Shown: piece after piece, positions 55,674 to 57,322 of the stretch
Layout: every line of letters begins with the position of its first letter
How positions within the stretch are numbered: position 1 is the first letter of the stretch
NCBI GenBank assembly: GCA_022768375.1
Contig: JALEMG010000010.1
Coordinates: 1-64,000 of the forward strand
Direction of reading: 5' to 3'
DNA: 64,000 nucleotides
DNA from: Lentisphaeria bacterium
GTDB lineage: Bacteria > Verrucomicrobiota > Lentisphaeria > Victivallales > Victivallaceae
Program-made: the position numbers and the translations under genes
Notes under the pieces: model-generated
Told to the model about the DNA's origin: nothing
Seen by the model: only the letters and a program-made list of their open reading frames with translations
Database searches by the model: none

Positions 55674-56075
55674 TTATTTTGCCGCTTTGACCGCCACGCC
55701 CGTCGCCCGCATGGAACGTTTCCAGATGATCCACAATCCCAATGCGCCGCTGGAACTCTCGGTGAATTCCACATCCTCCACCCGATCCGCCTTCAACTCC
55801 TGCAGATGGCAGTCCAGCATCCGGCGCATCTCCGGCTCCGTCAGCAGGTGTTTGCCCAGTTCGTAGTCGTGGCGGTTGGGCCGGGTGTTGTACCCGCACC
55901 ACACCGGGATGAAGTAGAACAGATACATGCCGTTGTTGACGGCGGTCAGATTCCACAGCACCGGCGCCCCGGATCTGCTTTGCTGGCCCGGGACCGGCGC
56001 GGTCCATTGCAGTGTGGAGGTCTGGGCGCATCCGGCCAACAGCAGCGCGACGGCCGCCAGGTACGATTTTTTCAT
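55674..56075 (-). CDS. Small predicted lipoprotein
   Basis: The 133-residue product begins MKKSYLAAVALLLAGC (acylated Cys16) and continues with a beta-rich domain: LWNLTAVNNGMYLFYFIPVW, RRMLDCHLQELKADRVEDVE and LGLWIIWKRSMRATGVAV. No family recognised. It overlaps the upstream RsmE-lipoprotein frame by the ATGA junction and is the last gene of that operon. Confidence 0.65.
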   Translation of the reverse strand: MKKSYLAAVALLLAGCAQTSTLQWTAPVPGQQSRSGAPVLWNLTAVNNGMYLFYFIPVWCGYNTRPNRHDYELGKHLLTEPEMRRMLDCHLQELKADRVEDVEFTESSSGALGLWIIWKRSMRATGVAVKAAK

Positions 56076-57253
56076 CTTTTTCTCTCCGAATTATTCCGCT
56101 TGACCGCGGTGAGTTCCGCATTCATACGGTTCAGAAGCAACTGTTGGCGGATCATCATTTTCTCCACCTTCCGATTCCGTTCCGTCAACTGTTCCAACTG
56201 CTGCTTCAGTTCTCCGTTTTCCCGGCGCAGACGGTCCATGCCGGAGAGTTTCTCTGCGACCCGGCCTTCCAGATGGGCGATGATCCTGTCCACCGCCTCC
56301 CGGCGGGGATCGTCCCCGCCGGTCAACTGCCGGTAATTCCGGTAGCAGTAGAGCGCCTCAAGGGGATCATCCAGAGATTCGTCGCACAACTGGGCCAGCG
56401 CCAGATGGACCGTCGGTTCGTCGGGATGGAGCGCCACCGCCCGCCGGAAGTATCGCCGGGCCGCTTCCAACTCCCCGCTGTCCCGCAGTTTCGCCCCCTT
56501 GATCAGCAAGGGGTTGTTCTCCACCGGACTTTTGCCGCATCCGGCGGTCAGCAGTCCCGCCGCGATCAGCGCCGCGCCCAGCATCCGCAGCGCGGCAAGT
56601 CCGCAGACGGCGGCTGTTTCCAACCGCAGGATGTAGGGAGCGAAGTGAAACGGCTTTGCCCCCTGCGTTTCCAGCAGCGCCAGTTCCTCCGGGGCGAAGC
56701 CGCCCTCCGGTCCGATCAGCAGCGCCCGGTCGCGTCCGCGTCCCGGCGGGGGCGGCGGCGCTGCCGTCACCGCGCCGTAGTACAACTCCGCGCCTTCCTC
56801 CCGGAGCCGGACCAGCGCCTGCGGCAATTTCTCCTCCGGGTACAACCGGGGCAGAAAGGGATTGCCGGACTGCTTGCATGCTTCGCGCAGCAGGAGTTCC
56901 CACCGTTCCCGGGGGTCGCCCTCGGCCACGGAGCGGATACAGCGCAGGGGCCGGATGCTCCACGCCCCCAGTTCCGCGGCCTGTTTCAGCAGTTGGTCCA
57001 GTTTCTGCCGCCGCGGGAGCGCGCAGACCAGGTGGAGTTTTACCGCCGGTTCCGGGACGGTCCGGACGGTTTCGATTTGCACTTCGCGTCCGGGCAGGAC
57101 CACTCCGTCGGCGATTTTGCCCGCGCCGTCCAGCAACTCCACCGCGTCGCCGGGAGCGGCCCGGAACACCCGGAACAGATGCTCTTTCTCCCGCTCCTCC
57201 AGCGCGGCGATCGTGCCGACGGCGGAAATCGCGGCGCAGAAAACCCGGTGCAT
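56072..57253 (-). CDS. rsmE: RsmE (16S rRNA m3U1498 methyltransferase) read in frame into a TPR lipoprotein
   Basis: The first ~223 residues are an RsmE-family rRNA methyltransferase (LHLVCALPRRQKLDQLLKQA, RSVAEGDPRERW, SGNPFLPRL, ALLIGPEGGFAPEELALLE, FAPYILRLETAAVCGLA). The frame then continues without a stop into MLGAALIAAGLLTAGCGKS (Met at residue 224, codon 56582-56584). That is a lipoprotein signal with Cys239, followed by a TPR-like repeat and coiled coil. It is either a fusion or two overlapping products with an internal start. GGGGAGG precedes the first ATG at 57253. No strong ribosome binding site precedes the internal ATG. Confidence 0.85.
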   Translation of the reverse strand: MHRVFCAAISAVGTIAALEEREKEHLFRVFRAAPGDAVELLDGAGKIADGVVLPGREVQIETVRTVPEPAVKLHLVCALPRRQKLDQLLKQAAELGAWSIRPLRCIRSVAEGDPRERWELLLREACKQSGNPFLPRLYPEEKLPQALVRLREEGAELYYGAVTAAPPPPPGRGRDRALLIGPEGGFAPEELALLETQGAKPFHFAPYILRLETAAVCGLAALRMLGAALIAAGLLTAGCGKSPVENNPLLIKGAKLRDSGELEAARRYFRRAVALHPDEPTVHLALAQLCDESLDDPLEALYCYRNYRQLTGGDDPRREAVDRIIAHLEGRVAEKLSGMDRLRRENGELKQQLEQLTERNRKVEKMMIRQQLLLNRMNAELTAVKRNNSERKR

Positions 57254-57322
57254 GGCAGAACCTCCCCTGATGACGTTTTCCGTAATTTACATTCCCGACC
57301 GCGTTTTTTCAAGCGCCGTCGA

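Follow-up and report, generated by a model that had tools for sequence, protein, structure and literature searches.

In-frame fusion of an RsmE-type RNA methyltransferase to a TPR lipoprotein in an uncultured genus of Victivallaceae

Introduction

How can an RNA methyltransferase that belongs to the cytoplasm and a lipoprotein that is exported from it be encoded by one and the same uninterrupted reading frame? This question is raised by a gene lying in a stretch of 64,000 nucleotides (hereinafter the window) from a Lentisphaeria bacterium of the family Victivallaceae. A first-pass annotation of this DNA regarded the combination of the two proteins as contradictory and offered two ways out of it: either an internal start at position 56584 generates a separate lipoprotein, or the fusion is real and the lipoprotein signal is buried within it. 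In order to discriminate between these possibilities, the locus was compared across the 34 genomes of the genus, which are uncultured relatives of the gut bacterium Victivallis, and across a family search embedding 78 genomes, 44 of which are outside the genus.

Results

Organization of the fused gene

The frame runs on the minus strand, a point left unstated in the first-pass annotation, from 57253 to 56072, with its ATG at 57253-57251 and its stop at 56074-56072; it encodes 393 amino acids and, as had been noticed in the first-pass annotation, it remains open past the point where rsmE normally ends. The gene encodes a complete RsmE protein (PUA and SPOUT domains) followed, in the same frame, by a lipoprotein signal, a TPR and a coiled coil (Table 1). 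Residues 223-239 read R-MLGAALIAAGLLTAG-C and represent the lipoprotein signal, MLGAALIAAGLLTAGC corresponding to residues 224-239, while residues 240-393 contain the TPR match and the long coiled coil; the succession of signal, lipobox, TPR and coiled coil that had been recognised from the letters of the sequence is therefore borne out, the coiled coil by modelling.

The small lipoprotein gene located 3' of the fused gene, whose start overlaps the stop of the latter, illustrates locally how a coupled start is arranged. A Pfam scan of this gene gave no match, and 28 of the 32 loci described below have a small lipoprotein gene close to the fused one.

Table 1. Position of the fused gene, its parts and its neighbouring features in the window.
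Feature	Position	Strand	Basis
Fused gene, 393 codons	56072..57253	-	Open frame; shared by 32 loci from 31 genus genomes
Shine-Dalgarno GGGGAGG of the rsmE start	57261..57267	-	Sequence; anti-SD energy -11.9
Promoter-like site 5' of the fused gene	57284..57312	-	Consensus scan only
PUA_4 RNA-binding domain, residues 18-53	57095..57202	-	Pfam; 32/32 fused chains
SPOUT methyltransferase domain PF04452, residues 69-222	56588..57049	-	Pfam; 32/32; fold matches RsmE structures
Predicted uninterrupted helix, residues 211-237, from the final RsmE helix into the signal helix	56543..56623	-	AlphaFold2, low confidence at 233-242
Internal ATG, Met 224	56582..56584	-	Met in 6/32
Internal signal segment: Arg 223, hydrophobic stretch, to Gly 238	56540..56587	-	Sequence, alignment of 32 loci
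Lipobox TAGC, residues 236-239	56537..56548	-	Cys 239 invariant, 32/32
Predicted mature lipoprotein, residues 239-393	56075..56539	-	LspA site inferred; free homologue adjoins rsmE outside the genus
TPR_14, residues 256-289	56387..56488	-	Pfam, 27.6 bits, cut-off 23.5
C-terminal coiled coil (long helix, residues 318-392) ending in a basic tail	56078..56302	-	Model; tails from alignment
Small lipoprotein gene 3' of the fused gene	55674..56075	-	SD GGAGAG; ATGA overlap with the stop of the fused gene

Distribution within the genus

The fused frame was retrieved from 31 of the 34 genomes of the genus, for a total of 32 loci, since one genome (G024, listed as 8% contaminated) carries two of them. 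The genomes without the fused gene (G005, G018 and G019) have a completeness of 71-83%. The other fused proteins share 35-64% identity with the window protein, and a stop codon at the junction occurs in none of the 32 loci. An uninterrupted junction in all of them, even where protein identity falls to 35-40%, is far more than chance would produce; the fusion is real and conserved in the genus.

The RsmE half

The N-terminal half of the protein matches PF04452 with 106.6 bits (cut-off 23.9; residues 69-222) and TIGR00046 with 100.8 bits (cut-off 41), the narrower RsmE equivalog models staying under their cut-off (the best one at 120.4 versus 196). Both RsmE domains were matched in each of the 32 fused chains, and the alignments to the 12 matching solved sequences stop at residues 219-227. 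The best Foldseek matches of the structural model are also RsmE structures, with TM-scores (normalised by target) of 0.85 to 5vm8_B and 0.84 to 4j3c_A. Regarding the active site, two residues have been proposed in PMC1829167, together with a third one introduced there as "perhaps also E101". R210 and Q128, to which the two proposed residues align here, are invariant in the 32 chains; E94, equivalent to the tentative E101 according to our own alignment, is Glu in 26 chains and Gly in six. In the sub-clade L027-L032, the motif around Glu 94 is altered to LPQLPGLG, with Gly in place of the Glu, and Met replaces Leu 209; the fused RsmE of these organisms possibly has an altered activity.

Overall, the protein resembles RsmE (the 16S rRNA m3U1498 methyltransferase; TIGR00046, PF04452, COG1385) in its PUA plus SPOUT architecture, its fold, its motif and, as aligned here, the two proposed active-site residues, but differs from it in carrying about 170 extra C-terminal residues that open with a lipoprotein signal, with no stop at the normal end. 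The fused enzyme is predicted to methylate U1498. Furthermore, a second RsmE-family gene exists in the same genome (L051:1509-2264, contig C15), whose best NCBIfam match is PRK11713.5-4 with 243 bits (cut-off 252), and such a gene is also present in many relatives, with or without the fusion. Therefore, the fused copy need not be the sole RsmE.

The internal signal and the exported half

The lipobox Cys 239 is present in 32 of 32 fused chains, preceded by Gly 238 (position -1) in 31; only small residues (A, S, C, T or G) occur at -2, and an Arg or a Lys stands ahead of the hydrophobic stretch in every chain. The stretch is 13-19 residues long (mean 15.5 in the fused chains versus 15.9 in the signals of free lipoproteins, p 0.72), and its hydrophobicity is slightly higher in the fused chains (2.34 versus 2.16, p 0.045); 32 of the 35 free lipoproteins entered this comparison, G066, G067 and G068 being left out. 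The mean pairwise identity is 53% in RsmE, 31% in the mature lipoprotein and 27% in the hydrophobic stretch; therefore, a cysteine that is kept in all the chains within so variable a surrounding stands out. A free lipoprotein (L207, in G067) has lost the lipobox Cys and retains a hydrophobic anchor only, so the lipobox Cys can be lost.

Thus, the positive residue, the hydrophobic stretch and the lipobox Cys that define a lipoprotein are found together in 32 of 32 chains, the signal lying inside the translation product, at residues 223-239, and not at its N-terminus. With an invariant lipobox, a positive residue ahead of it and a normal length, the internal signal looks functional, and the idea of a buried signal is probably wrong. 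LspA and Lgt are both encoded in the genome, as is an M50 protease. Ten of the 32 fused chains contain a peptidoglycan-binding LysM domain, which fits the export of the lipoprotein half. As for the C-terminus, 29 chains end in Lys or Arg, many of them with a short basic tail (56075-56090 in the window), and those that do not (L017, L028 and L029) are all LysM chains; in chains that have lost LysM, a charged tail may have taken the place of this wall-binding domain.

The AlphaFold2 model (mean pLDDT 89.2, pTM 0.60) was obtained from an alignment (A3) of 23 rows including RsmE homologues only, the C-terminal half being modelled almost without relatives. In this model, a single helix comprises the last helix of RsmE together with the signal, with low confidence towards its end; the TPR helices and then the coiled coil follow.

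The free gene pair outside the genus and the origin of the fusion

Outside the genus, 39 rsmE loci were read, and in 35 of them a lipoprotein gene lies directly 3' of rsmE; it was not found next to rsmE in the other four (G073, G076, G086 and G087). The overlap between the two genes amounts to exactly four bases in 23 of these pairs and to a different number of bases in four; in the other eight a short gap separates them. The Shine-Dalgarno energy at the free lipoprotein starts has a mean of -7.29 over the 35 loci, and 32 of these starts reach the median strength of the real rsmE starts. Victivallis vadensis DSM 14823, whose junction reads GGAGGCGGGCCGATGA, is one of the organisms with the free pair. 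The fused lipoprotein shares with the free TPR-LysM lipoprotein of Victivallaceae (e.g., that of V. vadensis, L069:5687-6370) the signal, the TPR, the coiled coil and, in the ten chains mentioned above, LysM; unlike it, the fused one has neither a conserved start codon nor a Shine-Dalgarno of its own, and its signal is placed about 223 residues into a longer chain.

Among the matches listed in the family and order searches, none from outside the genus showed a fused frame. The long frames of G086, G125 and G128 and the moderately long one of G130, retrieved in the order search, were discarded because they have normal ends, 47-49 residues past the start of GPEGG; likewise, the matches spanning RsmE into TPR in G041 and G081 have stops between the parts. 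A single-protein scan of named genomes gave no match, and an alignment-based scan recovered V. vadensis along with RsmE homologues of many different phyla (best 80 of 549); the RsmE end was read in eight of these best 80, V. vadensis and seven others, and a stop at the normal end is present in all. The first-pass annotation had asked whether relatives have a stop separating the two parts: this is not so in any of the 31 genus genomes carrying the gene, whereas it holds for the other genera of Victivallaceae, where the genes are separate.

In the RsmE-half tree built with 58 of the 79 rows (21 long or distant ones left out), the 32 fused rows form one clade (support 87/95, not starred). In the fuller tree of 79 rows, L017 and L019 group with Victivallis, so that two changes are needed; the two independent fusions suggested by this topology are disfavoured by the tree from which the long and distant rows were removed. 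A single origin of the fusion in the genus is most likely, being favoured but not proven. It is also most likely that what the genus inherited was the fusion of two neighbouring and translationally coupled genes, namely rsmE and the gene of a lipoprotein with a TPR and often a LysM. The short Shine-Dalgarno-bearing RsmE tail of V. vadensis is absent from most fused genes, which points to a deletion or a frameshift at the coupled pair as the likely originating event. In one locus (L196, in G081), the lipoprotein gene is in frame with rsmE, from which it is separated by a 12-base gap, and rsmE ends in two TAA stops; this arrangement might be a halfway state to the fusion.

Discussion

Alternative readings of the junction

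The simplest objection to the fusion is that an assembly or sequencing error erased a stop codon or that the gene is decayed. Even though the window genome is a draft in 64 contigs, this is extremely improbable: the open junction is common to 32 loci from 31 genomes, and both the RsmE motifs and the lipobox are under constraint. The sequencing error at the junction that the first-pass annotation had envisaged is thus ruled out by the relatives. A subtler possibility is that the fusion is made, and that a second start near the junction nevertheless yields most of the free lipoprotein. Indeed, the internal ATG of the window (56584-56582) would give a perfect-looking signal peptide; however, the sequence 5' of it reads CTTGCCGCGCTGCGG and has no Shine-Dalgarno, with an anti-SD energy of -3.2 versus -11.9 at the rsmE start of the same gene, in agreement with the earlier remark that it lacks a clear ribosome binding site. 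Met 224 is absent from 26 of the 32 chains, its column being mostly Arg or Lys. In G035, which has separate genes, the rsmE product ends in ALRMLIR, and Met 224 of the window may likewise belong to the RsmE part. If the junction interval is taken as the segment from the last motif of RsmE to 12 residues before the Cys, all 32 intervals hold some ATG, GTG or TTG, and in 13 loci a start-like codon equals or exceeds the median real start in Shine-Dalgarno strength, which would be in favour of internal initiation. Nevertheless, no start position is conserved: ATG is missing from the interval in 14 loci and, in seven others, the sole ATG sits inside the RsmE motif. Moreover, Shine-Dalgarno strength at the junction is below background: the 106 junction candidates have a mean of -2.82, compared with -3.39 for start-like codons in the remainder of these genes (775 codons) and -5.26 for the real starts of the 32 loci. 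The best junction candidate of each locus averages -4.20 versus -5.77 (sd 0.41) for equal numbers of background start-like codons, and the 13 loci reaching the real-start median compare with 20.3 expected (5-95% range 16-24); 25 of the 35 free starts entered this second comparison, the mean given above for free starts being based on all 35. In addition, the fused genes lack the strong Shine-Dalgarno in the rsmE tail that precedes the free lipoprotein start, ribosomes translating rsmE cannot terminate and re-initiate at a junction devoid of a stop, and a consensus scan found no minus-strand promoter-like site within the gene. A conserved internal start is not supported by these data, although initiation could occur in single species; a separate lipoprotein starting at 56584, as proposed initially, is poorly supported in view of the missing methionine, the weak junction signals and the strong ones of the free lipoproteins, and we regard internal initiation as the main source of lipoprotein as unlikely.

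The chain might otherwise remain uncleaved, as a single-pass membrane protein that tethers RsmE to the inner membrane, possibly along with ribosomes, while its TPR and LysM parts extend to the cell wall. A single chain in all 32 loci would be expected in such a case, the slightly higher hydrophobicity of the fused stretch is what an anchor might show, and the model depicts a continuous helix from RsmE into the membrane segment. However, an anchor needs neither Cys 239 nor Gly 238, and these are retained in 32 and 31 of the 32 chains, respectively; the loss of the lipobox Cys from the free member of G067 indicates that such a retention is not automatic, and LspA is present in the genome. A permanent tether of this kind is, in our opinion, improbable.

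A proposed fate for the fused chain

It appears very probable that one translation product contains both halves. Somewhat less firmly, but still as the reading that we favour, we propose that this product is inserted N-in through its internal signal, lipidated and cleaved by LspA, each of these steps and the fate of the tail being inferred. Ribosomes entering at the rsmE start would translate both halves as a single chain; the RsmE half would fold in the cytoplasm, and the internal signal would engage the Sec translocon in a type II (N-in, C-out) orientation. The lipobox Cys would then be lipidated by Lgt, and LspA would cut before it. Two products should result: an RsmE bearing the signal helix as a C-terminal tail, held at the membrane unless an intramembrane protease (the M50 protease being a candidate) trims it, and a normal TPR lipoprotein. 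The supposed contradiction between an RNA methyltransferase and an exported lipoprotein would be resolved by a type II topology, in which a membrane-inserted precursor keeps its N-terminal half in the cytoplasm and is cut at the lipobox.

One frame, two complete proteins and an internal signal with a conserved cut site, i.e., the marks of a polyprotein, are all found in this gene. SPOUT enzymes, including COG1385, possess a C-terminal trefoil knot (PMC1829167). YibK and YbeA thread their C-terminus through a loop; their folding is not regarded as co-translational, and it is strongly slowed by a stable or bulky C-terminal domain (PMC4556803); in a lattice simulation, tethering at the knot-proximal end was very unfavourable (PMC3527535). 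The fusion attaches an exported chain of about 155 residues to the very end that threads in these related SPOUT knots, and by this analogy it would be costly to fold. The chances seem to us evenly balanced that this is a natural polyprotein split by LspA, whose N-terminal product is a predicted-knotted RNA methyltransferase with its threading C-terminus directed to the translocon. If this were true, then the knot would have to form before export, or by a route other than C-terminal threading.

Precedents and significance

Both halves belong to known kinds of proteins; their joining, with a conserved cut site between the RNA methyltransferase and the exported lipoprotein, did not come up in searches of the open-access literature, which leaves out most subscription journals. 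Searches on Victivallis, on bacterial polyproteins and on internal lipoprotein signals likewise listed nothing pertinent. The nearest precedent known to us is FbcH of Bradyrhizobium, a cytochrome b/c1 precursor split by signal peptidase. As in FbcH, two proteins are encoded here by one bacterial frame, and an internal signal peptide is the expected cut site. The two cases differ in that FbcH contains two subunits of one complex and is processed by signal peptidase I, whereas the gene described here combines a soluble RNA enzyme and a lipoprotein without a known link, with LspA as the expected peptidase. Extra terminal domains are common in other SPOUT enzymes; those named in PMC1829167 are mostly nucleic-acid-binding domains and hydrolases, with no exported domain seen among them.

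Gene fusions are usually read as pointing to one function. In this genus, the chain joins proteins meant for opposite sides of the membrane, with a predicted cut site that has been preserved by selection. A gene of this type could easily pass for plain RsmE in an annotation, the lipoprotein being overlooked. The case is also relevant to the tying of deep knots in the cell: SPOUT knots are held to form by C-terminal threading and not during translation (PMC4556803), and the exported chain sits on that end. If LspA does split the chain, then lipoprotein maturation would also make a cytoplasmic enzyme, and the output of this RsmE would be locked one to one to that of the lipoprotein and to the membrane.
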